Positions 2,618 to 63,982 of a stretch of DNA of 64,000 bases are shown here, in pieces (positions within the stretch are counted from its first letter, which is position 1; every line of letters begins with the position of its first letter). Where the stretch lies: assembly GCF_018837975.1 (NCBI RefSeq), contig NZ_JAGSOY010000001.1:1-64000 (forward strand). The letters are read 5' to 3'. The DNA comes from Zooshikella harenae. Lineage in GTDB: Bacteria; Pseudomonadota; Gammaproteobacteria; Pseudomonadales; Zooshikellaceae. A model generated the notes under the pieces. The model searched no databases. It worked only from the letters and a program-made list of their open reading frames with translations, and was not told the origin of the DNA. The position numbers and the translations under genes were made by a program.

Positions 2618-2717
2618 AGGTCAATATCTTCTGCCAGAAAATGAATCAGGGATTATAGCAAACCCCACTCAAATGTATCGGTACTCATCACAACAAGTGC
2701 CGTTTTAACCGATTAGC

Positions 2718-3608: not shown

Positions 3609-3624
3609 AACACAGGTATCTCAC

Positions 3625-3902: not shown

Positions 3903-3946
3903 TACAAAAATTATCGCCACTACTTTTTATTGCCAGGAGCCCACTC

Positions 3947-5416: not shown

Positions 5417-5500
5417 TAAACATTTCACTGATGTAATCAGCTTACCAATAGGCGTTAATTTAGCGCCTATAAAAAAATCCCTAAAAGTCTGACTGACCCT

Positions 5501-5524
5501 GAGCGCATTTATGCGCTCTTTTTT
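5501..5524 (+). terminator. ilvC intrinsic terminator
   Basis: The stem GAGCGCA/TGCGCTC with loop TTTA is followed directly by six T residues. It lies about 85 nt downstream of the ilvC stop codon. Confidence 0.85.
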
Positions 5525-5556
5525 ATCATTCTGAACTTTTAAAAATTAATACCCAT

Positions 5557-5587
5557 AAAAAAGGCAGTGATTAACACTGCCTTTTTT
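5557..5587. terminator. Bidirectional terminator between convergent ilvC and ilvH
   Basis: The arm AAAAAAGGCAGTG pairs with CACTGCCTTTTTT around ATTAA. A and T runs on both sides let it work in either direction. It should end the leftward ilvIH transcript and back up the ilvC terminator. Confidence 0.85.
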
Positions 5588-5622
5588 ATTTCTGTATTTT
5601 GCCTGGTAATAACACAAAAGCA

Positions 5623-6114: not shown

Positions 6115-7838
6115 TAGGTTCGCTCCGTCTTACTTAACCACATATCTCTCATAGAGCCATCTTTAATTTGCATAGGGTATACATGCTCGTTAGGGTCAAC
6201 CCGAATATCTAAAAAGACCAAGCGATCTTTTATCGACAGCGCTTTTTCCATAGCAGGCTTAAGCTCTTCAGGTTTTTCGACCCGGATGCCTACATGACCA
6301 TAAGCTTCTGCCAACTTCACAAAGTCAGGTAGTGAATCCATATAAGAGTGAGAGTAACGGCTGTTGTACTGCATATCCTGCCATTGACGCACCATACCCA
6401 GCGCCTGATTATTCAAGTTAATAATCTTGATGGGCAAGTCATACTGCATACAGGTAGACAGCTCCTGAATATTCATTTGAATACTCCCCTCTCCTGTTAC
6501 ACAGACCACCATCTCATCAGGGAAGCTTAACTTCACCCCCATTGCGGAAGGTAAACCGAACCCCATCGTGCCAAGCCCACCAGAATTAATCCAATGATTG
6601 GGCTTATCAAATTTATAGTACTGTGCGGTAAACATCTGATGCTGACCAACGTCAGATGTTACATAAGCTTTGCCTTTAGTCACCTCACACAAAGTTTCAA
6701 TAACCATTTGTGACTTAATGACTGAACCATCACCTTTATCATAAGGAAATGTGCCACGAGACGAACGCCATTCTTCGATTTGCTTCCACCAGGCATTAAT
6801 TGCCTCTTCATTTAGAGCGCTTTTACCCTCTTTCAACAGTGAGAGCATCTCGCTTAAGACAGGTTGTACAGGTCCCACAATGGGTATATCTGCACGAACA
6901 TTTTTAGAGATACTTGCCGGATCAATATCGATATGAATTATTTTTGCTGTTGGGCAAAATTTAGAAATACCATTAGTCACCCTGTCATCAAAGCGAACAC
7001 CGACAGCTAAAATCAGGTCACTATGGTGCATAGCCAGGTTTGCTGAATAGCTGCCATGCATTCCTAACATGCCTAAAAATTGGTTGTCTGTGCCCGGAAA
7101 ACCACCCAGCCCCATTAACGTATTGGTCACAGGTAAACGAAGCTGTTTAGCTAATTGAGTAAGTTCATTCGCTGCTTTGCCAAGGATTACGCCACCACCG
7201 CTATAAATAATTGGCCGCTTAGCTTCAAGCAGCATATTTAGTGCTTTGCGAATTTGTCCTGAGTGACCTTTAAGTGGTGGTGTATAAGAACGAAGTTTGA
7301 CTTTTTTAGGATAAATATACTCGTACTTATCACTGGGATTGGTAATATCTTTTGGGATATCCACCACAACAGGCCCTGGCCGCCCAGATTGAGCAATATG
7401 AAATGCTTTTTTAATTGTGGCTGGAATGTCTTGGGCCTGTTTCACTAGAAAACTATGTTTAACGATTGGACGAGAAATACCCACCATGTCCGTTTCCTGA
7501 AACATATCTGTACCAATAAAATCTGAAGGTACCTGCCCAGAAATTATAACCATAGGTACAGAATCCATATAAGCCGTGGCAATACCGGTAATGGTATTTG
7601 TCGCTCCAGGCCCGGATGTCACTAATACCACTCCAGCCTTTCCTGAAGCACGCGCATAGCCATCAGCCATATGCGTCGCAGCCTGCTCATGGCGAACTAA
7701 AATATGAGTGACTTTATTTTGCTGGAATAAAGCATCATACACATGGAGTAAGGCTCCTCCAGGATAGCCATAAATATACTCCACTCCCTCATCCGCTAAT
7801 GCGCGGATAACCATTTCTGCACCAGATAATAGCTCCAC
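6114..7838 (-). CDS. ilvI: Acetolactate synthase large (catalytic) subunit
   Basis: Thiamine-diphosphate enzyme that condenses two pyruvates, or pyruvate with 2-oxobutyrate, at the first common step of branched-chain amino acid synthesis. It forms the holoenzyme with IlvH. The N-terminal ThDP-binding part contains the catalytic glutamate in [18 protein letters not shown], and the C-terminal part has the cofactor motif around [10 protein letters not shown] chose the GTG at 7838: AGGGG precedes it by 6 nt and the product is then 574 aa, the E. coli length. An in-frame TTG at 7874 would add 12 residues. The long upstream region contains paired segments (see that entry). Confidence 0.95.
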
Positions 7839-8410
7839 GAAATACCCCTTTCCAAACGTGATATTTTCCAACAAATACTACACTTGCATTCTATACTGCC
7901 AGATATAGTTGAGCGAGGCTGGGCTTGGTTAGGATAAACGGGTATCGCTTGCTCAGGAACTCACGCAACCTCGCTATAACTCATGAATGCTAATTATCCA
8001 ATGGATTACCAGACACTATCATTTAAATGAAGTGACATATAATTAGCAGAGCTATTCAGTTAAAACAAATACACGGGTACGTACCTGTTTTCCCGACCCG
8101 AGGTAACGTGGTCTAGGGAATCAGCCAGATATCGGGTTACGACTCTGGGCCTGACAGAAAATTGATAACATAGCCATCAACACATACATGTTATTGTCCA
8201 GCAATAATATGTCAATAGAGGAAAAGAGCTATGTGTGTTTCATTATGATAGTAACCAAGCCCATAAAACATCTTGGCTTTTAGGTGAGTGGCAATGGTTT
8301 AACACAAATTCAGTTAGATCTTGCTTCACTATTTAGCAATAATTTTCTATACACTATACTTTAATCTGTCTGTACAGCTGCGTACTTCAGTGATAACAAT
8401 AGGCCCCCGT
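7839..8410. other. Long divergent intergenic region between ilvI and a DUF4124 gene, with inverted repeats
   Basis: There is no coding gene here. On the ilvI leader strand AGCGAGGTT (7975-7967) can pair with AGCCTCGCT (7920-7912), allowing one G-U, and encloses about 46 nt. A GC-richer stretch at about 8091-8157 contains ACCCGA (8095-8100) pairing with TCGGGT (8132-8137). The DUF4124 side should hold its promoter near 8340-8370 (TATA-rich). I found no leader peptide rich in Ile, Val or Leu. The structured parts may belong to an ilvIH leader RNA or a separate RNA. Confidence 0.35.
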
Positions 8411-8869
8411 ATGAGACCATTTTTGTTAGCCAGCATTGCTTGCCTTGTTTTTTGCTTGCAAATTCAGCCATCCCATGCAGATACCTTTTATAAGTGGGTA
8501 GATGACCAGGGTGTAACCCACTATGGTACACGCCCTCCAGAAGGATCCAGTGCGGAATCAGTTAATACCCATGCTCAAAAACCTTCCAACCAAGAAAAGG
8601 CTACCAAACAGCTAGAAGAAACAAAGGCAGAACAAGCCTATCAAACAAAGGAAGAGGAAGAAGAAGAGCGCTTCCAAAAAGATTTAGCTGCGGCTAAACA
8701 GGAGCGTAAAAAACAGTGTGAAGAAGCAAGACAAAATAAAGTCCAGCTAACATTAAAAAGCCGAGTCAAAATGAAAATGGAAGATGGCTCAGTAAAAATG
8801 TTGAGTGAAGAAGAGCGTCAGAAGCAAATTAAACAGGCTGATAATGCGATTAAGGAGTTTTGCTTGTAA
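8411..8869 (+). CDS. DUF4124-domain periplasmic protein, coiled-coil rich
   Basis: Exported protein of unknown function. The N-terminus MRPFLLASIACLVFCLQ is a signal peptide, probably cleaved after SHA. It is followed by a DUF4124 motif (FYKWVDDQGVTHYGTRPP), a short beta-rich module found near the N-terminus of many exported gammaproteobacterial proteins. The rest is a charged, Glu/Lys-rich coiled coil with two cysteines in the last 60 residues. I chose the ATG at 8411 because it begins the signal peptide. It is a paralogue of the product at 34178-34648, with a similar C-terminus (basic segment, SEEER/SEKER, final Cys). The role is unknown; the call is to the domain only. Confidence 0.8.
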   Translation: MRPFLLASIACLVFCLQIQPSHADTFYKWVDDQGVTHYGTRPPEGSSAESVNTHAQKPSNQEKATKQLEETKAEQAYQTKEEEEEERFQKDLAAAKQERKKQCEEARQNKVQLTLKSRVKMKMEDGSVKMLSEEERQKQIKQADNAIKEFCL

Positions 8870-8940: not shown

Positions 8941-9399
8941 TCAGTACCCTGGAGGACATTTCAGGGTTACAACAAGTTTACCTCGATAATAAATAGCCGG
9001 GTCAGTTTTAAGCGCAACACTAAAGTGCTTCGATTTCCCAGGTAATGGTGCAACTAACCGGGATACTTCCCAATTCATAGTTTTTTGTAGCCCCTTATTT
9101 TGGCTACTCACAACTTCTTGTAACCGATAATCCAATAAAAAAGAATCACATCCACACTGCTTGAGTGGCTCCATTGAATACAACACCCCTTCGAGAAAAC
9201 TACCTTCTCTACGGTGTACAACCTGCCTTGGCGCCATGACTACACAATGATCAACATAATTTCGAATCGTTAGCTTTGAAAGCCATTGCTGATTTTTCCC
9301 CACTGTAGAAATAGGCTTGCTTGATGTTGGGAATAAACAACCAGTCAATGTAGAACAGATAAAACCCAGCAATAGCAAGCTCCTTTGCTTAATGATCAT
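8941..9399 (-). CDS. Small lipoprotein of unknown function
   Basis: The 152-aa product has a lipoprotein signal, with hydrophobic residues 7-17 followed by the lipobox LTGC (Cys21). The mature part has several cysteines (around HCVVMAP, QCGCD and the C-terminal KCPPGY) that could form disulfides in the periplasm. I do not recognise a family. It follows the YqcC-like gene by 7 nt and is the last gene of the leftward mrcB-lpoP-yqcC series, so it may share their transcript and be linked to the envelope. Confidence 0.7.
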   Translation of the reverse strand: MIIKQRSLLLLGFICSTLTGCLFPTSSKPISTVGKNQQWLSKLTIRNYVDHCVVMAPRQVVHRREGSFLEGVLYSMEPLKQCGCDSFLLDYRLQEVVSSQNKGLQKTMNWEVSRLVAPLPGKSKHFSVALKTDPAIYYRGKLVVTLKCPPGY

Positions 9400-9406
9400 A
9401 GCGCTA

Positions 9407-9724
9407 TCACTGAATAATGAGTTGATCGACTTTTTTGATTAAGACTAGCAGCTGAGTTGAATCGACCATCATCGACTTAAAATACTCTTCCGCTAAGACA
9501 TGGATATCACTGGACTTGGGTAAAGCTGCATTGCGATCTAAAAGCGATTCTATTTTTGGTATGAAAACCCACTGTAGCCACTGGGTAAATTCCAAAGTAT
9601 CAATACAAAAAGGCTGGTCACTAGCAAGTGCTTCTGCAGAAGGAGGCTCCACTTCCCAGAGTTGGAGTGCCTCCATTTCATCTTGAATAGCTTGGAGCAG
9701 GTGTCGTAAGTTTGTGGTTTTCAT
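9407..9724 (-). CDS. YqcC family protein
   Basis: Small soluble protein (105 aa) of the YqcC/DUF446 family, whose role is not established. Family features are the N-terminal helix LRHLLQAIQDEMEALQLW, then PSAEALASDQPFCIDTLEF and the segment QWLQWVFIPKIESLLDRNAALP, all close to the family pattern. I start at the ATG at 9724 because the family begins here; an in-frame start further upstream would overlap the lpoP stop region. In E. coli yqcC lies next to truC; here it sits in the mrcB cluster instead. Confidence 0.75.
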   Translation of the reverse strand: MKTTNLRHLLQAIQDEMEALQLWEVEPPSAEALASDQPFCIDTLEFTQWLQWVFIPKIESLLDRNAALPKSSDIHVLAEEYFKSMMVDSTQLLVLIKKVDQLIIQ

Positions 9725-9785
9725 AATTTGCTCTGGCACTACCTTATGTATAACGATGTGACAGAGCAAATTATGTGTGCTTGCT

Positions 9786-10496
9786 TTACCCCTGAGTAGC
9801 AATAGTCTGCGATTCTCGAATTAAATCTCGAAAACGCGCTTTCATACCTGCATCCCGGGTCAAAGTTAAGCCTCTACGGGCTAATTGCTCTGCCTGACGG
9901 TAATTGTGCTGCATGAGTCTAACAGAAGCTAGCTCATAGTAAACATTTGGATCTTGAGGAGATACCCGAAGTGCTCGCTCAAGTGTTGCGGCTGCGCCAC
10001 CTAAATTGCCTTCAGCACGTTGACGCTTCGCCGTATTAATTAACTTGCGAACTGCAGAATTACTTGATGTTGTTGACTCAGGACGAGACACATAAGCATA
10101 GCGGTCACGTTCTACCTGAGAAACACTGGCACGACGATCATACTGATCATAAGGCTGCTGTGAGTTGGCATTTTGCTCAACAGTATAACCACCATTGGTA
10201 TCCCCTCGAGACTGTGGATACTCTTGAGAAGGTGGTGCCTGATTATAACGATCATCAGGATAACCCTGTTGAGGATACTGTTGCTGTGGTTGCTGTTGTG
10301 GGTAACGTCCATGCTGATCTGTTGGATAACGTGACTCAACTGGAGCCTGCTGATAACCACCTTGTCCTGGCACCATACCTGTTCCAGGATCACGATCAGC
10401 AGGCACCAGGTAAGGGTTTGATCGACAGCCAGCTAAAGCTACCAATATGCCCAACACAATCATTAGCTTTGAATGCTGTCCATGAATTGACTGCAT
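9786..10496 (-). CDS. lpoP: TPR-containing outer-membrane lipoprotein, probable PBP1b activator LpoP
   Basis: Lipoprotein (236 aa) with the lipobox LAGC (Cys24), then a low-complexity Pro/Gln/Tyr-rich linker (residues about 30-125, long enough to cross the periplasm), and a C-terminal tetratricopeptide domain (about 147-230: AEGNLGGAAATLERALRVSP, then DPNVYYELASVRLMQHNYRQ). A TPR lipoprotein encoded directly downstream of the PBP1b gene matches LpoP of Pseudomonas, which activates PBP1b in place of enterobacterial LpoB. Its ATG has a good AAGGGGA ribosome site and lies 11 nt after mrcB. The name rests on architecture and position. Confidence 0.75.
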   Translation of the reverse strand: MQSIHGQHSKLMIVLGILVALAGCRSNPYLVPADRDPGTGMVPGQGGYQQAPVESRYPTDQHGRYPQQQPQQQYPQQGYPDDRYNQAPPSQEYPQSRGDTNGGYTVEQNANSQQPYDQYDRRASVSQVERDRYAYVSRPESTTSSNSAVRKLINTAKRQRAEGNLGGAAATLERALRVSPQDPNVYYELASVRLMQHNYRQAEQLARRGLTLTRDAGMKARFRDLIRESQTIATQG

Positions 10497-10507
10497 TTGT
10501 CTTCCCC

Positions 10508-12883
10508 TTATCTAAAAATAGACTTAAACCAATCAATAACTTTATTTGAACGACGGCGCTGAGGATAACCGTTGCGTCTATCATAGCCATCATTAGCACG
10601 ATAGCAGCCCGCCTCCTGAAGTGGCTCAAACCCTGACACAAAAGGCAGGTACCGAGCACCAGGGCAACGTTCTTCACTTCTTAACCCTGTTGCCTCATCA
10701 ACCCATAAGTAGTTTACACCCTCAGGAGTAATAGGCTGCAAAGAACGTACATTTGCCTTCTTCATAAAATCAGCCCACACTTTTAGCGCTCCAGAACTAC
10801 CTGTTAATGGTGTTGACTTATTATCATCTTTCCCTATCCAAACAACACTTAATAAATTCTCACCATACCCAGCAAACCAGCTATCACGCCTGTCATTAGT
10901 TGTACCCGTTTTACCTGCTAGCCTTAAGTTTCTTGGCAATACACTATAAGCTCCTCGCCCAGTGCCCTCACGCATTACTTCTTGCATAGCATATTGAACA
11001 AGGTGGACAAAACGCTCATCGACTTTCTGTTCCAACGCTAATTCATAACGTTGCAGTGTAATGCCATTCGCGGTTAATACTGCACGAATTGTTCGCATTG
11101 GGGTTTGGAAACCACCTGCTGCAACCGTTTGATAAACTTGAGCAACTTGTATGGGGGTTAAATTAATGGCGCCTAATAACATTGCCGGAAAAGGCTTAAG
11201 CTCTTCACCTACCCCAAGCTGTTGCAAGGTATGAATGACTTCTGTTAAGCCAACTTCCATACCAACTCGCACTGTACTTAAGTTATAACTTTTCGCTAAA
11301 GCTCGGTGTAAAGGCACCCAGCCATGACTTTTACGGTCATAGTTTTTAGGCTCCCACACATCGCCTGTATCAGACCTAATTGTTATAGTGTCATCATCAA
11401 TTAAAGTGGCTAAGTTGAACTGCTCAGGAAAACTTAACGCTGTCAAATAGACTGCAGGTTTGACTAAAGAGCCTATGGAACGTTCAGCATCCAGTGCACG
11501 ATTAAAACCTGCATAACCAGGTTTAACTGCACCAACAATTGCAAGCACATCTCCACTATTAGGAGCAGTAACTACCATAGCCCCTTGTAAGTCTTTATGT
11601 TTAGGATAAGCTTTTTTTAGTCTACCAATAGTTTGACTAACACTTGTTTGTGCTTTCATTTGGATAACAGGATCCAAATTAGTAAAAATGCTCAGTCCTT
11701 CTGAGGTTAAGTCTTCATCGTTGTATTCTTCACGAAGTTGTCTTTTCACAAGATCAAGGTAAGCATACGCATTAGCTAAGTAAGACTTATTGGACTTTAC
11801 AATATCCAAGGGCTTTTCAATGGCTTTTTTGGCTTGCTCTTGTGTGATATGACCTAGTTTAGCCATAACCTTTAAAACAAGATTACGACGCTTGAGTACT
11901 TTTTCAGGATGACGTCTTGGGTCGTATTCTGAAGGACCTTTTACAATACCGACTAATAGCGCTACTTGATGTAATTCCAGCTCACTAATTGGCTTACCAA
12001 AATAAAATTGGCTGGCCAACCCAAAACCATGAATTGCACGTTTACCCTCTTGTCCTAGATAGACTTCATTAAGGTAGGTTTCTAAGATATCGTCCTTGCT
12101 GTAATGCATTTCCAGCAAAAAAGCCATAGCGGCTTCTGATAGCTTACGCTTTAACGATCGCTCACTACTTAGATAGAAGTTTTTAACCAACTGCTGCGTT
12201 AAAGTACTTCCACCTTGTACCGTTGATCCTGAGCGGAAGTTAATCCATGCAGCACGAGCAATAGCTTTAAATGAAACACCATAATGTTGATAAAATTTAC
12301 GATCTTCTACAGCAAGCAGTGTAGGAATTAACATATCCGGAAGCTCTTCCAGCCGGGTAATAATCCGGTCTTCATTACTATCTGGATAAATTCCACCAAT
12401 GAGTAAAGGCTCCAGTCTTAGCAAAGCAACTGGCTTTCCTTCAGTATTTTTAAGCGCCTTTACACTATGCTGGTTAAAGTTCACTGTAACCAGCTGAGCA
12501 GGCTCCGCACCATCTTCAAACTGAAAACCACGCGTATACAGCGTATATGTTGTGCCCTTTCTCATCACTTCACCAGGGCTATCAACAGTGTCTTTGCGTT
12601 GATAACCTAGCTGCTTAAGCTGAAGGGCAAATGTATCTGGCGACAGTTGTAATCCTTCATAAAGCTCTAAAGGGCGAGCATATACTTTGGCTGGAATATC
12701 CCACTTTTTGCCTTCAAACTTTGCTGTGACAACAGCATCAAGACGATAAAGGTATACCCCACCAACAACGCCTATCACTAACATAACCAGCAAACAAAGC
12801 TTGATCAGTGTACGGAAAAGACGGAATTTTTTTATGGGCTTTTGAGGTTGGGAATTTTTACTGTTAGGGTCTGATTTGCTCAT
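10508..12883 (-). CDS. mrcB: Penicillin-binding protein 1b, bifunctional peptidoglycan synthase
   Basis: Class A PBP that polymerises lipid II and crosslinks stem peptides at the inner membrane. The 791-aa order is: cytoplasmic tail, one membrane helix (about 23-47), a UB2H regulatory domain (about 60-150), GT51 glycosyltransferase with catalytic Glu193 in VEDRKFYQHYGV and the GGSTLTQQLVKN motif, then transpeptidase with SLVK (Ser472), SYN and KTGTT. All catalytic motifs are present. UB2H is the docking site for LpoB in E. coli; here a TPR lipoprotein follows immediately. The gene probably leads the leftward mrcB-lpoP-yqcC-lipoprotein transcript. Confidence 0.96.
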   Translation of the reverse strand: MSKSDPNSKNSQPQKPIKKFRLFRTLIKLCLLVMLVIGVVGGVYLYRLDAVVTAKFEGKKWDIPAKVYARPLELYEGLQLSPDTFALQLKQLGYQRKDTVDSPGEVMRKGTTYTLYTRGFQFEDGAEPAQLVTVNFNQHSVKALKNTEGKPVALLRLEPLLIGGIYPDSNEDRIITRLEELPDMLIPTLLAVEDRKFYQHYGVSFKAIARAAWINFRSGSTVQGGSTLTQQLVKNFYLSSERSLKRKLSEAAMAFLLEMHYSKDDILETYLNEVYLGQEGKRAIHGFGLASQFYFGKPISELELHQVALLVGIVKGPSEYDPRRHPEKVLKRRNLVLKVMAKLGHITQEQAKKAIEKPLDIVKSNKSYLANAYAYLDLVKRQLREEYNDEDLTSEGLSIFTNLDPVIQMKAQTSVSQTIGRLKKAYPKHKDLQGAMVVTAPNSGDVLAIVGAVKPGYAGFNRALDAERSIGSLVKPAVYLTALSFPEQFNLATLIDDDTITIRSDTGDVWEPKNYDRKSHGWVPLHRALAKSYNLSTVRVGMEVGLTEVIHTLQQLGVGEELKPFPAMLLGAINLTPIQVAQVYQTVAAGGFQTPMRTIRAVLTANGITLQRYELALEQKVDERFVHLVQYAMQEVMREGTGRGAYSVLPRNLRLAGKTGTTNDRRDSWFAGYGENLLSVVWIGKDDNKSTPLTGSSGALKVWADFMKKANVRSLQPITPEGVNYLWVDEATGLRSEERCPGARYLPFVSGFEPLQEAGCYRANDGYDRRNGYPQRRRSNKVIDWFKSIFR

Positions 12884-54734: not shown

Positions 54735-55508
54735 GTGAAACCGGCTCAACATCAAACGCAGATCCACGCTTTTTTAAATTTAAGCTCAACCCAAATTGAT
54801 CGTTTTACCCTTTGTTCACAAGAACAAAGTAAGCTTCCTAAAGGCTTTTTAGCTATTGAACCTTATATACAGCAAAAAACACAAAAAGGGGTTCTTCAGT
54901 TTTTTTTCCAGACAGATAATCAACGCGCTTTCATTTATTGCAGTGATGAAATGGGTGAGTTTTATTATTTTCATGTGCCGTACATTAATCACCACTTATT
55001 TCTCAATAAACTACAACGCTTTATTAGTCACTGGCTAGAGCAAAGGGATGCTGATCTAAAGCCAGGAACACCCATACAAAAAGTACAGTTCTGGGAGATT
55101 GAGAGCTTAAATAATGACCAACCCAAGATTACACCTATCACCATAAAAGGCTTTTATGAAAATACTTACAATGAGTTTGATATACAAGTGAAAGTCATAC
55201 TTGATCATACAAAAAAGATTTCATTAAAAATAAGCTGTGGTCATAAAGAGTATGATCAATATCACCTAGGAAAAGTGACATTCATTAAGGTCGCACAAGA
55301 AATTTTAAACCACCGAGAAATGTCTCTACCCTACCCAGTTTATATTGCTAAACTTGATTTGTCACCTTTACAACACACCGTATTTAAAGGAGTATTTCCC
55401 AGTATTATTGACCATATACAATACAAATTACTGGTTGAACAACTTCTCAATGCAGCCTTGCAAAAAGAGGCTATGCAAACGCCAAGCGATATTGAATTAC
55501 CAGAATAA
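54735..55508 (+). CDS. Stand-alone C-terminal region of a class I adenylate cyclase
   Basis: A 257-aa protein whose last third resembles the C-terminus of CyaA: KISCGHKEYDQYHLGKV for YCDHQEFS-like, then LPYPVYIAKLDLS and HIQYKLLVEQLLNAALQ, in the same order as in Pseudomonas-type CyaA. The catalytic nucleotidyltransferase domain that starts CyaA is absent; the 200 bp upstream hold only the argH hairpin. The GTG start has AGGAG 9 nt upstream, so the gene looks translated as it stands, not a recent deletion. cyaA is often near argH, consistent with a reduced or split copy. It could be a regulatory partner of a full CyaA elsewhere. Assignment from pattern, moderately sure. Confidence 0.55.
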   Translation: MKPAQHQTQIHAFLNLSSTQIDRFTLCSQEQSKLPKGFLAIEPYIQQKTQKGVLQFFFQTDNQRAFIYCSDEMGEFYYFHVPYINHHLFLNKLQRFISHWLEQRDADLKPGTPIQKVQFWEIESLNNDQPKITPITIKGFYENTYNEFDIQVKVILDHTKKISLKISCGHKEYDQYHLGKVTFIKVAQEILNHREMSLPYPVYIAKLDLSPLQHTVFKGVFPSIIDHIQYKLLVEQLLNAALQKEAMQTPSDIELPE

Positions 55509-56238: not shown

Positions 56239-56661
56239 CTTAAACAACAGCCAAGACAGATGATATGCCTGTAAGCATCATACTGGAGCATAACGATTTC
56301 AACTTGACTTAACATGTTTAAACCTACTTACTGGTATAACCACGTATTCCACTTATACACTCAGTGATGTACCTCTACTTAAAGGTATACCCTTCACGAA
56401 TCATTTTTAGGGTTTGTTGTCAGCGTTCTTCACCCCAGTTCACTTATTAATATAAGCTCCTGAGGCTTCATCACTTGACGGCCACACCCTTGTGCCCTAG
56501 GGGTATAAAAACCCTTCGTTATGGATATATACATCATATCTTAGTTATTTTTTAGCGTTATTATTGCAACACTTATATTACATAAGTATATATTGCTTTT
56601 AGCTAGTCGTGTATATAGAAATCAGAAATATACCGGTTTTATCCGGTACATCTCTTTTTTA
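56239..56661. other. Intergenic region downstream of the TelA operon
   Basis: About 420 bp without a gene. It holds the second copy of the 33-bp repeat (56475-56507) and otherwise AT-rich sequence. It lies between the last operon gene and the leftward terminator, so it would be transcribed as a long 3' region. Confidence 0.4.
56475..56507 (+). repeat. Intergenic repeat, copy 2
   Basis: TTGACGGC, then CCCTTGTGCCCTA and GGGTATA with the same spacing as the copy at 42789-42821; 4 of 33 positions differ. CCCTAGGG in this copy is a perfect palindrome. Confidence 0.7.
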
Positions 56662-57708
56662 TTACAATTTATTATCAGCAGCCATTTTCATATATTTATC
56701 TATAAAGCGAAGCTTAACATTCTTCTTATTACCTAACACTTCACCATTAGAAAATTCTATTCCGACAAAGTCTGGAGAAGAAGCATTTGCGCCAAATAAA
56801 CCTTTATCAAATGAAAACTGTCTAACGTGCTCCATGGTCTTCTTCACATCACCACTGTTCGCTAGCTCTGAAGCTTCTTTTGCTGTATAAAACATGCGAG
56901 TTGTCTTTAACTGCGCATTAAACTCTGCTTCTGTAGCACCGGAATTACTCGCCATAAACTGTATAGCTTCTTTCCCTTCTTTATCACGCTTAGACATAAT
57001 CGCCATTGTTTCATACCAGGCACCCGTTAATGCTTTCTTTAATCGCTCATCAGCGCCGGTTTTAACGATCATTAGATCTAAAATTTCACCTGGGATTTTT
57101 GAAGAGTCAAACACCAGGTTTGCACCTTTACTATTTCTTACTTGCTGCAAAGGTGGATTCCAAGTGACAGTCGCTGCATTTTCATTGGCTATAAAAAGTG
57201 AAGCTATATCAGAATCTGAAGTATTCACTACCTTAACATCCCGCTCTGACATGCCATTCATGTCAAGTGCTCTTGCTAAAAGATAGTGGGAAACAGAAAG
57301 CTCAACCAAAGTTACTTTACGATCTTTGAGATCTTTCACTGATTTGCCATTTTTAAGCACAATACCATCATTACCATTCGAGTAATCGCCAATGATAATA
57401 GCTGTTGAATCAATTCCACCTACGGCAGGTATAGTTAAGGCATCCATATTTGTCATCGAGCAAGCATCAAACTTACCTCCGGTATAGAGATTGATTGACT
57501 CTATATAGTCATTTACCAGGGTCAGTTTAATTTCAATGTCATATTTATCAGCCCATTTTTTTAAAATACCTTTTTCTTCTGCAAATGCCCAAGGCTCCCA
57601 GCCAGTGTAGTGAGACCAGGCAACATTAAACGTATCTGCAGCCTGTATTAATGTACTTAATAGCGATGCTGCGCCAAAGAGAATAGCCTTTTTACAAAAT
57701 TTAATCAT
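56662..57708 (-). CDS. Free periplasmic substrate-binding protein (NMT1/urea-carboxylase-region type)
   Basis: A 348-aa exported binding protein: signal peptide ILFGAASLLSTLIQA, then a two-lobe fold with WSHYTGWEPWAFAEEKGIL at the start, GGKFDACSMTNMDAL and SHYLLARALDMNGM. It resembles the nitrate/sulfonate/thiamine-precursor (NMT1/THI5) class and the group annotated as a putative urea-type binding protein. The ligand cannot be read. No ABC permease or ATPase is encoded nearby. It is the last gene of the leftward operon, 30 nt after telA, and has a good AAGGAG ribosome site. Confidence 0.85.
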   Translation of the reverse strand: MIKFCKKAILFGAASLLSTLIQAADTFNVAWSHYTGWEPWAFAEEKGILKKWADKYDIEIKLTLVNDYIESINLYTGGKFDACSMTNMDALTIPAVGGIDSTAIIIGDYSNGNDGIVLKNGKSVKDLKDRKVTLVELSVSHYLLARALDMNGMSERDVKVVNTSDSDIASLFIANENAATVTWNPPLQQVRNSKGANLVFDSSKIPGEILDLMIVKTGADERLKKALTGAWYETMAIMSKRDKEGKEAIQFMASNSGATEAEFNAQLKTTRMFYTAKEASELANSGDVKKTMEHVRQFSFDKGLFGANASSPDFVGIEFSNGEVLGNKKNVKLRFIDKYMKMAADNKL

Positions 57709-57738
57709 TTTTGCTCCTTAATTTTTTCATAAAATCTT

Positions 57739-58947
57739 TTAGCGACCATTTTCGACATCAACTATTTCTAGACCAAATTCTTGCTCAACAGCTTTACCTT
57801 TTTGGAGTTTTGCAATAGCTTTACCTGCTCTTTCATTTAATTGATCCATCTCCAATACTGTTTTTGCCATTTTTGGAAGTGCTTCTTGACGGAAAGTAGA
57901 TAAGTCTTCAATTGCAGCATTCACATCATCAAATGCTTTTTTCAATGTTTCCATATTTAATTGCGTGGATGCTGCTTGCTTATGAATTTCAGCTCCCTGC
58001 TGACGTAAACGTGCGGCAGTACCTGCTATAAGGTTGTTGGTAGTTTCATTAACAGCTGCAACCTTCTTAAGCACTATACGCTGATTTTCCAATGCAAGCG
58101 CTAATGTCACAGCAACCTGCAATGCCTGTACCGTAACGCTTACAGCACGGTTAACACCACGAATTAATTCTTTATTATTTCGAATAATCACTTCAATGGT
58201 GAGAATACCTTGTTGATTAACAGCAAGCTGCTGTTGCAAGTCCATAATACGCTGAGTCAACGGAAACAAAATTTCTTCTTTAATAAAGTTATGTTTTGGA
58301 TCATCTGTTGGGATTTCTGTTTCCAGCTTTTCATTCAGCTTATCTGCTATTGCTTGCGCTAACGAAATAGCTTTTTTCAAACGTACCGTGAGATCATGCA
58401 TAGCTGTCTGATCTTTTTGCAGCGTAATATTATCTCGCTTCAGTTGTTCACGGCCTTTTTCCAAGCTTTCAACAATGTCATCAATAACACGTCCCGAGCT
58501 TTGATACATTGCAAAATAGCGCGCTAAAGGAGACCCCACAAAAGGCAGTTTACATAACAGTCGACGAATAAAACTGGATGAAAATTCAAACTTATTTGGA
58601 TCAAGTGATTCTACTGTATTACGTAGCTGCAACAATGAATCAGCAACAGGCCCGCCATCTTCACCCGCTTGCGCTAAACTATGAATGGGTTGCTTTAACA
58701 TATCAGAACGCGTAGCAGCTTCACGTTGAAGCTTTCCGCCAACCTGCTCAACTGCAGCTATTGCTTGATTTTTCTGATTTAAATCTGCAGGGCTCACGCT
58801 AAGTAAATTATCAACAACAGATGCCGCTTGTATCATTAACTCACTGGATACATCTGTTTTTTCCGCTTCATCTCCAGTCATTAATTCTTTACGAACGGTA
58901 TCCACATCAAAGGTATTCAACGATTGCTCAGTTGACACTTGTACCAT
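57739..58947 (-). CDS. TelA family protein (toxic anion resistance family)
   Basis: A 402-aa mostly helical cytoplasmic protein of the TelA/YaaN family, first linked to tellurite resistance and since to broader envelope stress; the molecular function is unknown. Family parts visible are LCKLPFVGSPLARYFAMYQSS, VESLEKGREQLKRDNITLQK and AVTLALALENQRIVLKKVA. I chose ATG 58947 because GGAG lies 9 nt upstream; an in-frame TTG at 58962 would add five residues. It follows the XpaC-like gene, the pairing seen in Bacillus (xpaC-yaaN). Confidence 0.88.
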   Translation of the reverse strand: MVQVSTEQSLNTFDVDTVRKELMTGDEAEKTDVSSELMIQAASVVDNLLSVSPADLNQKNQAIAAVEQVGGKLQREAATRSDMLKQPIHSLAQAGEDGGPVADSLLQLRNTVESLDPNKFEFSSSFIRRLLCKLPFVGSPLARYFAMYQSSGRVIDDIVESLEKGREQLKRDNITLQKDQTAMHDLTVRLKKAISLAQAIADKLNEKLETEIPTDDPKHNFIKEEILFPLTQRIMDLQQQLAVNQQGILTIEVIIRNNKELIRGVNRAVSVTVQALQVAVTLALALENQRIVLKKVAAVNETTNNLIAGTAARLRQQGAEIHKQAASTQLNMETLKKAFDDVNAAIEDLSTFRQEALPKMAKTVLEMDQLNERAGKAIAKLQKGKAVEQEFGLEIVDVENGR

Positions 58948-58962
58948 AACTATATGCTCCAA

Positions 58963-59772
58963 CTATTGCTGCAAATTATAATCTGTTGCGCGCTCTGCTA
59001 CTTGTTGTAACTCTTGCATTGCTATATCCATATCGACTTTGGCTCTCCCACTCGTTGTCTTAATATTTGCAAGCTGGGTCGAGACATTATCAATTTGAGT
59101 TAACGCTTGTTCATTCGTCACTAACAAATCATGCATTCGTTGCAACTGACTTTCATACATATCCAGACGACTTTGCAACGTTTTTCTTTCCAATTCAGAA
59201 TTTGCTGAGCCGTCTTCATTTAACTTAACGATCTTTTTACGTAAGCTTTCAGTATCCATTGCACTTACACTTTTCAAGCCAAGTGCCACGCCTTCTAAGT
59301 TATCCAATCCAGCCAAAAATACCTGTTCAGCAATCGCCAAGTATCGACTAAACGTCAACTCGGTTGAAGTAAACTTTTTCTGTAAGATATCCTGAAAATT
59401 ATCAAATTTCTTTTTAAATAATTCTAATTGTCTAATCCCCTCTTTTGAGTCAACGCTACTCAGTTCACTCTCCAGTTTTTTGAGCATTTCATTGCGTTTA
59501 ACAACCATGGATTCATGGATTTGCCCTAAAAAAGCAATAATATGATTGTTCTCTTGGATAAAATATTCATATATCCACCCTAAGGATGCACCCGCAAAGC
59601 CCGTAATTGCACCCACTAATGCAATGGTTGAAAAGTCAAAAAATAACATTGCTGCAGTGGAGAGTACCCCCACAACGGTGGGGTATAATAAAAATGGACT
59701 TTGTAAAGAACGCTTTAAAACCGCTTTACTAATTGCCTTTTTAGATAGGTCTACTTTTTTACCTACCAACAT
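58963..59772 (-). CDS. XpaC-like membrane-anchored coiled-coil protein
   Basis: A 269-aa protein with two N-terminal membrane helices (about residues 27-46 and 49-70: LYPTVVGVLSTAAMLFF and IALVGAITGFAGASLGWIY) and a long C-terminal coiled coil (about 85-260). Architecture, size and position directly upstream of telA match XpaC, which is paired with TelA in Bacillus; I did not verify sequence similarity. It probably anchors or partners TelA at the inner membrane. A 98-nt gap before it may hold an internal promoter. Confidence 0.6.
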   Translation of the reverse strand: MLVGKKVDLSKKAISKAVLKRSLQSPFLLYPTVVGVLSTAAMLFFDFSTIALVGAITGFAGASLGWIYEYFIQENNHIIAFLGQIHESMVVKRNEMLKKLESELSSVDSKEGIRQLELFKKKFDNFQDILQKKFTSTELTFSRYLAIAEQVFLAGLDNLEGVALGLKSVSAMDTESLRKKIVKLNEDGSANSELERKTLQSRLDMYESQLQRMHDLLVTNEQALTQIDNVSTQLANIKTTSGRAKVDMDIAMQELQQVAERATDYNLQQ

Positions 59773-59870
59773 GAGATATACCTACTGTTATATACTTCAG
59801 CAATCATCGCTTTCATAATGCCTATAATTTTTTTGTGTGATCTTTATAGTTCATTCTGCATGAAATTGCG

Positions 59871-61418
59871 TTAAAAATTCTCACCCACTAATACAAGTTC
59901 AACACGAGGTAACCTATAATAATAGGCTCTAGAAGACTCACCTGGACGCTTAGCAAGTGGTTTTGTTCCTCCAAACCCTTTTGCACGTATACGATGTTCA
60001 TCAATGGCATGAGTAATTAATAAATAACGACGAACGGCATCAGCACGTTCTTGAGAGAGCCTTAAATTAGCCTCTTTGTCGCCTCTCGTAGATGTATGAC
60101 CACGAACCTCAATACGAAAACGAGGATAGTGCTTTAAGTTTTCTGCAGCACGATCAAGTTGCTCTTTCCCTTCCAAGGTGAGTTGATCTGTACCCGACGA
60201 AAATACGACAGGACGCACTTTTAAGGTACCCACTCCCACCAAACGATCCCACTGCTTATCCGTTAATGCTGTAAATGTCGGGGTTGCCATATTTTGAGGT
60301 GCATGTTCCAGTTGCCCTTGCTGTGAAAACTGATCGAATAAGCTGGCTACAAACTGGCTGTTGGTAATCCGATAAGGGTCTTCATCTGGTAAAGGATTCT
60401 GGGTAACATCTCCATACTCCCGCAAGATATCAATTGTGCCTTCAATGGTATTGATTAATGCTTCATTCGCATAACCTTGAGCATGAGTACCAAACCAAAT
60501 ACGCGCATTATCAGTCAATGAAATCCAGCGCACCCCATCAAGCACAGTACTAATTTCATCGTCATCAAGCCGTAGGCTTTTTTTCAAATCTTTTTGTAAC
60601 TGTTTAGGATTATCACGATAATACTTTTGTGTTTGATAGTAGGCTTGTAAAAATAATTTTACTTTTTCAGGTTGGTCTTTTGATAATTCTCTATTTACCA
60701 AAAGGACATCCACTATTAATTGCGCAGTTTGGTCACTCCCAAGTATTCGAATAATACCATCTTCTTTTAATGCTTTACTGACATGTGGTTCCCAAAGCAC
60801 TGCAGCATCTACATCACTGTCTAACAAATGATCCAAAGCTTGTGATGAACCTTCCGCAGTTACTGCCCAATCATCCCTCTGGCGAAGATGGGGAATATCA
60901 AAGTGAACTGAAAGCGCCTTGAGTAAATGATCACTGGGTGAGTCAGGTGTAAATGCAATTCTTACATTAGTTTTCGTTTTTAATTCATCCAATGATGCCA
61001 ATTTATTTTCTCGTGCAACCAGCGCATCTCCCCCCTTTGACTCATCAATCACATTGATAATGGTTCCAGGGTAATTCGCATCACTTCCAGTAAGTACATA
61101 AGCATCAACCGTAGCCACAGCAAAATCCAGCTTACCTTTAGCGAGACCTTTCATCCGTTGGGCATAATCGGCCTTATCATTTATACAGTTTAACCGATAA
61201 CCTTCCTGACGCAGTCGTGACTTAATATGAGGTGAGCATAATGGAAAATAACCCACCCAGTCATCAACAGCAATACTGATTTCACCTTTAGTTTCCCGTG
61301 CATCACTTGTCTTCTTTTGCTCCCATTCCGAAAACCAGGGTTTTATCAGGCTGGTTATTCCCATAACAATCAGCCCTAAAATTATTAAAAAAATGGTTGC
61401 TTTAACGTGCTTTGACAT
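59871..61418 (-). CDS. Membrane-anchored substrate-binding protein fused to an OmpA domain
   Basis: A 515-aa protein with an N-terminal membrane anchor (FLIILGLIVMGITSLI, residues 10-25), a periplasmic NMT1-type binding domain (about 45-300: ISIAVDDWVGYFPLCSPHI, KGLAKGKLDFAVATVDAY, VDAAVLWEPHVS), a linker, and a C-terminal OmpA peptidoglycan-binding domain (about 400-513: IEVRGHTSTRGDKEANLRLS, then RADAVRRYLL). It therefore joins the inner membrane to the cell wall with a ligand-binding module between. It starts 2 nt after the vWA gene ends. The ligand is unknown. Confidence 0.85.
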   Translation of the reverse strand: MSKHVKATIFLIILGLIVMGITSLIKPWFSEWEQKKTSDARETKGEISIAVDDWVGYFPLCSPHIKSRLRQEGYRLNCINDKADYAQRMKGLAKGKLDFAVATVDAYVLTGSDANYPGTIINVIDESKGGDALVARENKLASLDELKTKTNVRIAFTPDSPSDHLLKALSVHFDIPHLRQRDDWAVTAEGSSQALDHLLDSDVDAAVLWEPHVSKALKEDGIIRILGSDQTAQLIVDVLLVNRELSKDQPEKVKLFLQAYYQTQKYYRDNPKQLQKDLKKSLRLDDDEISTVLDGVRWISLTDNARIWFGTHAQGYANEALINTIEGTIDILREYGDVTQNPLPDEDPYRITNSQFVASLFDQFSQQGQLEHAPQNMATPTFTALTDKQWDRLVGVGTLKVRPVVFSSGTDQLTLEGKEQLDRAAENLKHYPRFRIEVRGHTSTRGDKEANLRLSQERADAVRRYLLITHAIDEHRIRAKGFGGTKPLAKRPGESSRAYYYRLPRVELVLVGENF

Positions 61419-61420
61419 AA

Positions 61421-62242
61421 CTACTCACCAAACGTATCAAGCGGAAAATCCTCTGACTCAGCAAGCACTTGCTCTAAACTACGCTGTAAACTTTGCGGAT
61501 TATTTGCGGCTTTATAGTCAATAATACCGGGTTGATTCAATGAGTGAGCTTCATTAATACAAAACCCTATAGTATGAATCATAATGGGAGATTCACGTCC
61601 AATTTTTTCAACTATTGACTCAGGTTCTTCACCAAGATTTGCTTCACCATCAGTAACAATCACTAAGTGATATTCACCGTACCCTAACTGTGCTTTTGCT
61701 TGTTGTGACAGCGCTTGATAACCCGTACGAATGGCTGATAGTAAAGGCGTACCCCCTTCAACAATGACAGACTTGACGGCTTTCACGAACTGATCGTTGT
61801 TATTAGAAGATAATGCAACCCGCTCAGAGAGCCCAGCTTTATCAAATACTAATAATCCCAAATTAGCACTGACGGGGATCTGGCTGGCAAATACTTCTAA
61901 AGCATCCATAGCTGCATATATTTTTAGTTTTCCACCACCGCATTCCCCACCCGCCATTGAGCCACTACCATCAAGCACAACATAATAATTTGTTTGTAAT
62001 AAATCCTCAGCTACTCGATTATTTTCTGGCAGCGTTGGCCAAGTGTTGAGTAAAGGCTGCATATTATAGGGACGTCCATCATCACGCGTTGACTGGATAG
62101 ACTGACTATCGCCCTCATGAGCAGCAGAAGTTGTTGCTGGACTACTTGCGGCTGAATTATTTTGTGCTGTGTTTGTTCCTGACTCTTCACAAGCCGTTAG
62201 CCAAAACGACAACACAAGCAGTATAAATAAGCGTTTATCCAT
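61421..62242 (-). CDS. von Willebrand factor A domain lipoprotein
   Basis: A 273-aa lipoprotein with lipobox LTAC (Cys18), a Ser/Ala/Asn-rich linker and a vWA domain from about residue 85. The metal-ion-dependent adhesion site is complete: Asp91-Gly-Ser93-Gly-Ser95 (VLDGSGSM), the GGTPLL threonine and the IVTDGEANL aspartate. vWA domains bind partner proteins through the metal. A CGGG pair (GECGGGK) follows the MIDAS loop. It lies between the two binding-protein/OmpA fusions, 36 nt from the first and 2 nt from the second. Confidence 0.88.
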   Translation of the reverse strand: MDKRLFILLVLSFWLTACEESGTNTAQNNSAASSPATTSAAHEGDSQSIQSTRDDGRPYNMQPLLNTWPTLPENNRVAEDLLQTNYYVVLDGSGSMAGGECGGGKLKIYAAMDALEVFASQIPVSANLGLLVFDKAGLSERVALSSNNNDQFVKAVKSVIVEGGTPLLSAIRTGYQALSQQAKAQLGYGEYHLVIVTDGEANLGEEPESIVEKIGRESPIMIHTIGFCINEAHSLNQPGIIDYKAANNPQSLQRSLEQVLAESEDFPLDTFGE

Positions 62243-62278
62243 GTGACCATTCCTTACCTTGACTACTTTTCAGATTGC

Positions 62279-63982
62279 CTATAATGGCCTAAACACGGAT
62301 GACTCTGCTTCTACTTGCAAAATTCTAAACTGCACCCGCATATTTGACCGCCATTGCTTTTCTGTTTTTGGTACACAAGGATCAGCGCCACACACTCCTG
62401 TTTTTGGAGCACTAATACCATGGCCGATAACAGCAAACTGGGAAGGATCTAGTGAAACACCTTTATTTTTTGAAAAATCAATAATGTTATCACGCACTTC
62501 TTGCGCCCGACTCAAACTTAAATTACGTGCAGCTTGTTTTATCCGACCTAATACCATTCGCGAAGCATTAGCTTTTCGCTTTCGCAAATAATTCATCGGA
62601 TCACTGTGCCCTTCTATGGTGATAATAGCGCCACCATAAGTACTGGCTAAATCCATTACCTTTTTAAATGCATCTTCATACAATTCAGCAGAAAAAGTTT
62701 TTTGGTTTGGCTTAAAGAATACTTCAAAAGAAAATAACTCTCCTTGATCAAGACTTCCCTGTTGCTGTTTTTGAGTAACCAGTGCAGCGACCTTGCTTTC
62801 ATCAAACTTAGGCACTTCAGCCACATTTATTTGTGATAATCCCTTTTTAAGCTTGTCATAATCCCATCTTGCTTGTGCAACTTCTTGTTGTTGCTGTAAT
62901 AAACCGACTTGATGTAATCCATGTTGACTTTCTTTAACAATAACTGCAAAGCGGCGAGGGTAAGCATTGTTTTTAAAAAACTTAACATTTCCATCATATC
63001 CCACATGGCGAGCATCCTGATACATGCCCTCAGCATCAGCAAGTGCCTGCTCACTATCCAGCAGCCCTTTCGCTGCTGCCCGCATCATTTGTTCATACGC
63101 TTTGCTATCCGCTGTACGTTGCTGGACAACATTACTCATAGACTCTTGTCCAAGTAATAAGCTGCGTGCAAATTTTTCTACCACATCACGATGTTGTTTG
63201 AAAAAATCGCTACGCACTGCATAAACATCTGCAATTACTGTATCTGCAGTTTTTGTAGATAATAAAATTTTTGCACCTTTAACTGAATCCTCTGCACCTG
63301 TTCCTACACTACCACCAGAGGTCAGTGCCAATGCATCAGGAATAATAACAAATGCAGCATCAATATCTTTTTCATATAATGCAGCCATAGGACTATTGTC
63401 AGTACCTGTTAGATCTTTGACCCAACGGACATTAATATCCTTAAACGTTAAACCTGCATCAGCAAGAATCCGTGATAAATAATCAACATGAGGACCATAA
63501 GCTTGTAATACGACTGTTTTGCCTCTTAAATCTTTAACCGTTTTAATCCCGGATTTAACGACAAGTGCATCCCCACCAGCTGAATCGGTTAATTTGTAAA
63601 TAACAATGGGCTTTGTCTTAGCGTCTTTACTAATAACATCCATTGCCATGTTCAACATACCAATAGTGCCTCGGAGAAAAGGTGAATCACCCTTCAAATA
63701 ATGTTGAACTTGTTTTGCAAAATCATCTTCACGGGTTAACTTTAATTTGAGTCCCTGCTGTGAAACAATCGAATTTGCTTGAGTAGAAAGGTTATTACCA
63801 TTGGCATGAATAACGGCAATGTCTCCCCCCCAACTAATAAAAGGCACCTGCAATACATCACCTTCCACAGGCCCTACTTGGGCTGACACCACTTGGTTTA
63901 AAGGCTTAATATTTATGTATTCAACCGCTACAGCTAAACTGCTTAATAGTAGGCTTGCGGTCACTACTAATGCTCGCAGCAT
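62279..63982 (-). CDS. Exported substrate-binding protein fused to an OmpA domain
   Basis: A 567-aa periplasmic protein with signal peptide LRALVVTASLLLSSLAVA, an NMT1/phosphate-type binding domain (about residues 30-330: DSAGGDALVVKSGIKTVKDL, DIDAAFVIIPDAL), a helical linker (about 330-410) and an OmpA peptidoglycan-binding domain (about 415-560: SFEVFFKPNQKTFSAELYED, IEGHSDPMNYL, LSLSRAQEVRDNI, and MRVQFRI for the usual RRVE). I chose ATG 63982 because AAGGAGAGG lies just upstream. Whether another gene precedes it cannot be seen, as the window ends 18 nt further on. Confidence 0.85.
   Translation of the reverse strand: MLRALVVTASLLLSSLAVAVEYINIKPLNQVVSAQVGPVEGDVLQVPFISWGGDIAVIHANGNNLSTQANSIVSQQGLKLKLTREDDFAKQVQHYLKGDSPFLRGTIGMLNMAMDVISKDAKTKPIVIYKLTDSAGGDALVVKSGIKTVKDLRGKTVVLQAYGPHVDYLSRILADAGLTFKDINVRWVKDLTGTDNSPMAALYEKDIDAAFVIIPDALALTSGGSVGTGAEDSVKGAKILLSTKTADTVIADVYAVRSDFFKQHRDVVEKFARSLLLGQESMSNVVQQRTADSKAYEQMMRAAAKGLLDSEQALADAEGMYQDARHVGYDGNVKFFKNNAYPRRFAVIVKESQHGLHQVGLLQQQQEVAQARWDYDKLKKGLSQINVAEVPKFDESKVAALVTQKQQQGSLDQGELFSFEVFFKPNQKTFSAELYEDAFKKVMDLASTYGGAIITIEGHSDPMNYLRKRKANASRMVLGRIKQAARNLSLSRAQEVRDNIIDFSKNKGVSLDPSQFAVIGHGISAPKTGVCGADPCVPKTEKQWRSNMRVQFRILQVEAESSVFRPL

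Follow-up and report, generated by a model that had tools for sequence, protein, structure and literature searches.

Why should a gene for TelA stand in one array with binding proteins fused to OmpA domains? The question is raised by a stretch of 64,000 nucleotides (nt) of Zooshikella harenae DNA (hereafter the window, the first part of the 229,687-base contig NZ_JAGSOY010000001.1), at the right end of which six genes follow one another on the minus strand. They encode two fusions of a solute-binding protein (SBP) domain with an OmpA-type domain (SBP-OmpA1 and SBP-OmpA2), a vWA protein, a membrane coiled coil, TelA and a free periplasmic SBP. The initial annotation took them for a six-gene operon and a candidate envelope-sensing system. 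Coordinates, domains and the short gaps on one strand are all borne out, and the set recurs far beyond chance; however, the unit continues past gene 1, with genes for an ATPase and a permease of an ATP-binding cassette (ABC) transporter upstream of it. We propose, with about as much confidence as doubt, that the eight proteins form one functional unit, a NitT/TauT-type ABC importer within a trans-envelope assembly that would be scaffolded by TelA or, in relatives, by a PspA-like module.

Contig 66061-65228, minus: TauC-like permease, upstream of the ABC ATPase, past the window end
Contig 65216-64320, minus: ABC ATPase, upstream of SBP-OmpA1, past the window end
63997-62279, minus: SBP-OmpA1 (gene 1), an NMT1/TauA-like solute-binding domain and a C-terminal OmpA-type domain with the motif aspartate (D) and arginine (R) kept; signal peptide by eye
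62242-61421, minus: vWA protein (gene 2), Pfam vWA domain with an intact metal ion-dependent adhesion site (MIDAS); lipobox LTAC in the window copy
61418-59871, minus: SBP-OmpA2 (gene 3), N-terminal membrane anchor (by eye), NMT1/phosphonate-bd domain and an OmpA domain without the motif aspartate
59772-58963, minus: membrane coiled coil, called XpaC-like at first (gene 4), two N-terminal helices that read as transmembrane (TM), then long helices
58962-57739, minus: TelA (gene 5), PF05816, divergent subfamily
57708-56662, minus: free periplasmic SBP (gene 6), TIGR03427, urea-carboxylase-associated ABC SBP
56624-56655, minus: 13-bp hairpin just past the last stop codon, a possible terminator with a poor T tail

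An array that extends beyond the window

From gene 1 to gene 6, the open reading frames (ORFs) are separated by 36, 2, 98, 0 and 30 nt; TelA starts with a TTG at the 0-nt gap, and the next ATG would make this gap about 15 nt. Pfam and NCBIfam name five of the six proteins, gene 4 being without a family. TelA matches PF05816 at 237 bits (cut-off 30) and the free SBP matches TIGR03427 at 519 bits (cut-off 334); the OmpA domain of gene 1 scores 22.4 bits, under the Pfam cut-off of 27.2, but among proteins of solved structure the gene 1 profile matches an OmpA domain at E = 1e-4. The ABC ATPase gene lies about 320 nt upstream of SBP-OmpA1 on the same strand, and the genes past the permease look unrelated by eye (surface-type and glycolytic). 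An ABC permease and ATPase immediately to the right had been named beforehand as the finding that would speak against a new sensing system; both are there, and both belong to the conserved unit. Judged from sequence, the locus has what defines a NitT/TauT ABC importer: an ATPase with intact motifs, a binding-protein-dependent permease and an SBP.

Conservation of the eight-part unit

A collection of 84,980 species was searched with a gene 1 profile that combines the window sequence with those of two Vibrio plasmids and one phage. Sixty-eight stretches matched a pattern and yielded 56 loci encoding a relative, a lower bound given that the pattern scan overlooks distant relatives; most are from metagenome-assembled genomes (MAGs), where misbinned contigs are possible. 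To assign the neighbors, we used profiles that started from the eight proteins of the Zooshikella locus. The loci were chosen on gene 1 alone, and the other seven parts are independent of this choice. At least 9 kb of downstream sequence is available for 35 of the 56 loci, and 27 of these carry all eight parts (29 of 56 when cut contigs are counted), which bears out the expectation that the genes co-occur elsewhere. Part by part, the vWA protein is found in 34 of the 35 loci (49 of 56 overall), SBP-OmpA2 in 33 (45 of 56), the membrane coiled coil in 31 (41 of 56), the free SBP with permease and ATPase in 30 (34 of 56), and either TelA or a PspA-like protein also in 30 (12 and 18 loci, respectively; 37 of 56 overall, 15 and 22), the two never occurring together. 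Twenty of the 35 loci keep one exact order, namely SBP-OmpA1, vWA, SBP-OmpA2, coiled coil, TelA or PspA-like protein, SBP, permease, ATPase; 12 have the PspA-like protein and 8 have TelA (in one of the latter the coiled-coil ORF is split). Permease and ATPase come first, as they do in the window, in three of the 35, among them that of Zooshikella ganghwensis DSM 15267, the closest named relative, in which gene 1 is 93% identical. The unit is rare: gene 1 is present in 3 of 369 genomes evenly sampled from the window's class, its own genome included, and gene 4 in none of three genomes from another genus of its family.

Departures from the full set are informative. Of the eight incomplete loci among the 35, L050, L052 and L091 have no transporter nearby, L053 lacks TelA, L069 the free SBP, and L080 the permease and ATPase, and in L070 the coiled coil falls below the assignment threshold. 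A Gammaproteobacteria MAG (L073) has a transporter-only form consisting of SBP-OmpA1, SBP, permease and ATPase. Conversely, among 31 TelA loci, L123, L129, L130 and L132 have TelA and the coiled coil without the rest (in L130 the coiled coil lies within a 1102-amino acid (aa) ORF); L128 adds only the free SBP to this pair, L125 lacks the free SBP, and L124 is cut. Because transporter-only and coiled-coil-only reductions both occur, the unit appears to combine two sub-modules, an importer and a membrane scaffold. The history of L073 seems mixed, its SBP-OmpA1 grouping with the PspA clade and its free SBP with the TelA side of the respective trees. No recurrent regulator was seen beside the unit, although of the recurrent unassigned ORF families only an AAA+ protein was identified with Pfam. 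A family of 402-aa ORFs adjoins the unit in L054, L058, L069, L071 and L093, with a cysteine cluster that by eye resembles those of radical-SAM proteins.

TelA and a PspA-like protein occupy the same place

In loci of the PspA clade, a protein of 270-280 aa sits between the coiled coil and the free SBP, the place of TelA. When its profile was compared with PDB sequences, Vipp1/PspA took the first four places, with E values between 7e-7 and 7e-6 and a colinear alignment of about 180 residues (68-249); as a control, profiles of other coiled coils from these loci list no Vipp1. No family is hit by more members than PF04012 (7 of 16 at E<=0.5, best 5e-4), and the two members with listed scores are both under its cut-off. 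None of the eight proteins of the window operon matches PF04012.

In a quick tree of SBP-OmpA1 (63 sequences, 62 different), 18 rows with TelA and 26 with the PspA-like protein fall on opposite sides of a branch with a Shimodaira-Hasegawa-like approximate likelihood ratio test (SH-aLRT) value of 100, the 19 rows with neither protein not being counted. A single TelA/PspA exchange is enough for this pattern; chromosome, plasmid and phage labels need at least three changes. The TelA clade comprises Pseudomonadota, Thermodesulfobacteriota, Elusimicrobiota, Bacteroidota and Sungbacteria, and the PspA clade comprises Planctomycetota, Verrucomicrobiota, Acidobacteriota, Omnitrophota, Sumerlaeota, Myxococcota and others. 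As phyla are mixed within both clades, these sequences suggest that the unit has spread horizontally.

Whether a locus has TelA or the PspA-like protein, its membrane coiled coil belongs to a single family (hhalign E = 4e-16). The structure model of gene 4 has a predicted local distance difference test (pLDDT) score of 84. A likeness to a designed helical repeat (VIA Z 12.9, root-mean-square deviation 3.4, 135 aligned residues) was set aside as lying within the chance range for helical proteins. The name XpaC-like reflects its topology of TM helices and coiled coil and its position next to TelA: gene 4 of the window does not match PF10112 at E<=1, and only one of 28 relatives does (E = 0.012). 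Compared with the XpaC neighbors of canonical TelA, the gene 4 family gives weak hhalign matches (E = 0.002 and 0.0005, with probabilities of 13% and 32%). Of the 31 TelA loci, 21 have a PF10112-type neighbor (3 by Pfam and 18 by similarity to these), none of them with SBP-OmpA; nine others have a coiled coil of the type found in the eight-part unit, and L122 has neither.

Conserved motifs of the binding, vWA and ATPase proteins

In Acinetobacter OmpA (PDB 3td3), an aspartate and an arginine of the OmpA motif serve in peptidoglycan binding. In the alignment of SBP-OmpA1 sequences scoring over 450 bits, the aspartate is kept in 63 of 63 and the arginine in 62 of 63 (one gap), whereas among 54 SBP-OmpA2 sequences over 300 bits the arginine is invariant and the aspartate is absent from 52, being present only in L038 and L057. 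The proposal that two of the binding proteins are tethered to peptidoglycan is doubtful for one of them: SBP-OmpA1, with both residues kept, is expected to bind the wall, and SBP-OmpA2, with the aspartate missing, may not do so in the usual way, a non-classical wall contact being possible. Well-conserved columns (>=0.8) of SBP-OmpA1 number 85 of 279 in the SBP domain and 36 of 138 in the OmpA domain. The SBP domain being conserved at least as well as the OmpA domain, it most likely retains a ligand.

The MIDAS residues of the vWA protein are kept in 57-58 of 58 sequences. Its description as a lipoprotein agrees with the lipobox seen by eye in the window copy, but a lipobox is called in only 6 of 51 relatives, whose start codons are uncurated. 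In the ATPase, the Walker A GK, signature SGG, Walker B DE and H loop are present in all 42 sequences over 300 bits, the window copy included, and the residues next to these motifs vary as usual (S/T, L/M).

Plasmids and giant phages

Nine plasmid records match gene 1. Six are Vibrio plasmids of 240-320 kb (at least 80% coverage, 45-47% identity), of which the two that were read carry all eight parts. In the stretch read of Vibrio coralliilyticus p380 (L041, 11863-14908), only a distant SBP-OmpA1 and a 476-aa vWA protein are present, with no transporter and no TelA. On the Vibrio plasmids L039 and L040, a PRTRC-system region lies to one side of the operon and an RctB-domain replication gene to the other, with conserved hypothetical genes flanking.

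All eight parts, in the PspA-like version, are also encoded by the 595-kb phage LR756511, which has a terminase over the cut-off; its coiled coil scores 55 bits. The unit is carried by the IMG/VR contigs L098 and L099 (identical), L101 and L102 too, L100 being cut. In L102, a 359-kb viral contig, TelA stands ahead of SBP-OmpA1 and the latter is split over two ORFs (9005-11688), which reflects either decay or an assembly error. A terminase was found in all four named phage records and in none of the four scanned IMG/VR records, which may be fragments and are taken as viral on the word of IMG/VR.

A tblastn search with the SBP-OmpA of a 735-kb phage covered at least 80% of the query in 20 records, namely 15 Lak phages, two of phage G, two of the 735-kb phage itself and MT835556 (38 kb); LR756500 was covered over 59%. 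Seven phage loci were read (L036 of the 735-kb phage, L037 of phage G, L038, L159 and L160 of Lak phages, L161 of LR756500, and L162). The permease is present in all of them and the ATPase in all except L162; Lak phages recode TAG, and translation table 11 was used for the ORFs. A profile from three megaphage SBP-OmpA proteins retrieved 16 IMG/VR loci, 15 of them different (L171 = L175), with the permease in 16, the ATPase in 15, both in 15, and a 2-TM coiled coil in 14, in 13 of which it lies directly upstream of SBP-OmpA. Coiled coil, SBP-OmpA, permease and ATPase adjoin one another in 12 of the 16 contigs, and a soluble coiled coil of 208-242 aa precedes the 2-TM coiled coil (about 345 aa) in all seven loci examined. 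Phage G has the permease as gp243, the ATPase as gp245, coiled coils as gp246-247 (by eye) and SBP-OmpA as gp249-250. The megaphage 2-TM coiled coil matches PF04012 in 5 of 15 members (best 2.9e-6); its best 60 PDB rows include no PspA chain, and hhalign matches it to none of the bacterial families. From these sequences, megaphages appear to encode ABC importers with an OmpA-tailed SBP.

A linked AAA+ protein

The most frequent additional ORF family beside the unit, present in 27 loci by ORF clustering, is an AAA+ protein. By profile it is found in 25 of the 56 genome loci, with 18 strong matches (>160 bits) and seven weak ones (49-84 bits; L047, L048, L051, L052, L054, L055 and L056) that possibly reflect AAA-domain similarity only. 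Pfam recognizes one AAA domain, in the C-terminal half, in each of four proteins scanned. In PspA-clade loci the gene shares the strand of the unit and either precedes or follows it; in eight TelA-clade loci it lies on the opposite strand, seven times upstream and once downstream. Two further frequent ORF clusters (11 and 10 loci) run antisense to the AAA+ gene in the printed examples. In the window's own genome, three matches were found, through the AAA domain only and away from the operon.

Candidate solute

The free SBP of the window and that of one scanned Vibrio plasmid match TIGR03427 over the cut-off, and phage LR756511 has a match under it (132 bits). Proteins over this cut-off occur in 46 of 398 genomes of the phylum. 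We inspected 20 TIGR03427 neighborhoods of 12 kb, 19 over the cut-off and one under it (L158), and found no SBP-OmpA1, vWA or TelA in any of them. Ten large ORFs picked by hand beside these relatives of the free SBP were nine pieces of urea carboxylase, cut by the 12-kb stretches and hence under the full-length cut-off, and a glutamine synthetase (L158). In a quick SBP tree with long branches, units of the TelA branch adjoin these TIGR03427 relatives and those of the PspA branch stand apart. Guessing by kinship, the solute, at least in the TelA branch, could be a small nitrogen compound, urea- or guanidine-like.

Relation to known systems

The closest match in the literature is the study of Ravi et al. 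2024 (PMC11237479), which reports PspA and TM-Snf7 with an AAA+ protein in longer operons with an ABC ATPase, a permease and a PBPB-OmpA protein, and already proposes a link between membrane remodeling and solute transport. Our loci share with these operons a PspA-like protein (of a sister clade), a membrane coiled coil, a linked AAA+ protein (in 25 of 56), an ABC transporter and SBP-OmpA. Unlike them, the window version has TelA in place of PspA and no AAA+ gene was found with it, and it adds the vWA protein, a second SBP-OmpA and the free TIGR03427 SBP. The TM-Snf7 and two-AAA proteins of that study may correspond to the 2-TM coiled coil and AAA+ protein described here. The words TelA and vWA do not occur in the text of PMC11237479, supplementary tables aside, and no description of the TelA/vWA version or of the fixed gene order was found in the literature searched, again with supplements aside. 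As far as the text of that study goes, the operons of PspA, TM-Snf7 and AAA+ with an ABC transporter and PBPB-OmpA are known, and what appears new is the TelA/vWA variant and the fixed eight-part order.

Other systems resemble parts of the unit. The TelA-XpaC pair likewise has TelA next to a membrane coiled coil. Ter systems (TelA, TerF vWA) share TelA and a vWA domain; unlike them, the unit has no partner of the TerB, TerC or TerD type among its eight proteins (Pfam), and its vWA protein has an export signal by eye. TauABC and Uca-type importers share the TIGR03427 free SBP, the TauC-like permease and the ATPase, but the unit comes without urea carboxylase and with extra SBP-OmpA, vWA and coiled-coil parts. 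Zorya is matched through the OmpA domain of ZorB only, with no ZorA among the six genes and an adjacent HNH gene. The main texts of the huge-phage and Lak papers, supplements aside, name neither OmpA nor ABC transporters. For Bacillus phage G (gp243-gp250, JN638751), adjoining genes are annotated in the deposited record as an ABC permease, an ABC transporter and two OmpA/MotB proteins; this record is silent on the SBP halves, the coiled coils and any kinship to the bacterial unit.

A proposed function and its alternatives

The gene content and order, motifs, TelA/PspA exchange and distribution are established from sequence. Because the ABC genes, vWA protein, second SBP-OmpA and two coiled coils travel together, we regard it as neither an orphan sensor nor an ordinary importer. 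In the importer-scaffold assembly that we favor, the anchored SBPs, one held by the wall and the other behind an inner-membrane anchor, would keep captured solute near the permease across the periplasm, and the vWA protein would dock the outer parts in a metal-dependent manner. The 2-TM coiled coil would recruit TelA (or PspA) to the inner face of the membrane, where it might form a scaffold like those of PspA and the endosomal sorting complex required for transport III (ESCRT-III) that clusters the transporter and/or stabilizes the surrounding membrane. In relatives with the linked gene, the AAA+ ATPase would remodel this scaffold. A bolder extension, which we put forward tentatively and consider rather less probable than the assembly itself, is that TelA acts as a functional stand-in for PspA/Vipp1, each building with a 2-TM recruiter an ESCRT-III-like inner-membrane scaffold around an ABC importer with wall-fixed receptors, and that giant phages took this machine, or a reduced version, to control both the envelope and the uptake of a long-infected host.

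Several findings weigh against the proposed assembly. TelA and the PspA-like protein have no sequence similarity, so that TelA as a distant PspA is unsupported at this level, and neither the window nor the 20 kb around its right end has a match to the PspA-like profile. The structure model of TelA is of low confidence (pLDDT 65) and matched no solved fold; its best hit is to a designed bundle (E = 0.004), with no PspA among the 50 best rows. Foldseek likewise gave no solved fold for the membrane coiled coil (best E 0.09). L050, L052 and L091, each with at least 9 kb downstream, have no transporter nearby, and the four TelA loci reduced to TelA and coiled coil have none of the other parts. The AAA+ profile has no match in the window or in the 20 kb around its right end. 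In the window's genome, the gap of about 320 nt leaves co-transcription of the ABC genes with the six window genes a presumption. Urea carboxylase was sought in the window's genome and rejected (11 matches, none over the cut-off), and the tie of the TelA branch to this enzyme is one of family, not of neighborhood.

Of the alternatives, the one that survives best, although we consider it doubtful, is envelope defense, in which the unit shields the inner membrane or bars toxic ions, peptides or the DNA of rival phages, the transporter supplying or pumping a solute that this requires. TelA and XpaC genes respond to envelope stress in Gram-positive bacteria: the Listeria homologs rise alongside the phage shock protein (PSP) genes on bacteriocin exposure, with a cited telA mutant 4-fold more sensitive to nisin and 2-fold more sensitive to tellurite (PMC12791056), and both go up in Lactococcus on membrane-protein overproduction (PMC3139573). 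How TelA confers tolerance to tellurite and nisin is described as unknown (PMC12791056). One proposal places TelA in a barrier beneath the membrane that acts against phage or xenobiotics (PMC7824862), and huge phages are said to encode membrane proteins possibly affecting infection by other phages (PMC7162821). The swap of TelA for a PspA-like protein would fit a defensive role, as would the patchy spread, with few genomes of the class having gene 1, gene 4 missing from three genomes of another genus of the family, and copies on Vibrio megaplasmids and in giant phages. However, none of the eight proteins is a Ter partner, PADLOC, given the six genes plus the HNH gene, reported for the six only a weak TerY match and ZorB matches through the OmpA domain, and an intact importer is the constant partner, in 30 of 35 loci.

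Sensing without transport, as first suggested, would have the three SBPs perceive a solute or the state of the wall, with the vWA lipoprotein relaying the signal to XpaC/TelA. The co-occurrence of parts on which that idea was built is upheld, and anchored SBPs with a vWA docking protein would suit a sensor, but permease and ATPase belong to the unit in those same 30 loci, the ATPase motifs are intact and no regulator was recognized in the unit, so we judge it unlikely. Least probable is an ordinary urea- or taurine-type ABC importer with accidental neighbors: free SBP, permease and ATPase do come from common families, TIGR03427 proteins over the cut-off occurring in 46 of 398 genomes of the phylum, with 19 over-cut-off places lacking SBP-OmpA1, vWA and TelA, yet many phyla, as well as plasmids and a phage, have the same neighbors in the same order.

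In this operon, TelA and PspA/Vipp1-like proteins trade places while the other parts are kept, which opens a direct way to test the notion that TelA does the job of PspA. The operon further suggests a physical organization of some ABC importers by membrane-remodeling proteins and the cell wall, an idea that extends to giant phages, with both transporter genes on 15 of the 16 IMG/VR contigs (15 different).

Regulatory candidates and neighboring genes

Candidate control elements were considered and rejected. A sigma-70 promoter before SBP-OmpA1 is represented by a single 9/12 site in the gap, the region having 6 such sites against 11 in shuffles; for a guanidine or other riboswitch upstream, Rfam gave no match at E<=1 (positions 1-8700 of the stretch at the window's right end). 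Hairpin-type sites such as the one past gene 6 number 5 in the region, with 5.4 expected from shuffles.

Some 460 nt downstream of the operon, in the same orientation, lies a gene for an HNH endonuclease (PF14279; 55601-56200, minus), which is probably outside the unit; the protein resembles IscB, Cas9d and PtuB through its HNH domain alone. Farther on, a 257-aa ORF (54735-55508, plus) follows an argininosuccinate-lyase-like gene, named by eye. Its similarity to class I adenylate cyclase is confined to the last 200 residues of that enzyme (NCBIfam E = 1e-19, well short of the cut-off for the full-length protein), and it is predicted to be a free-standing domain like the C-terminal part of CyaA.

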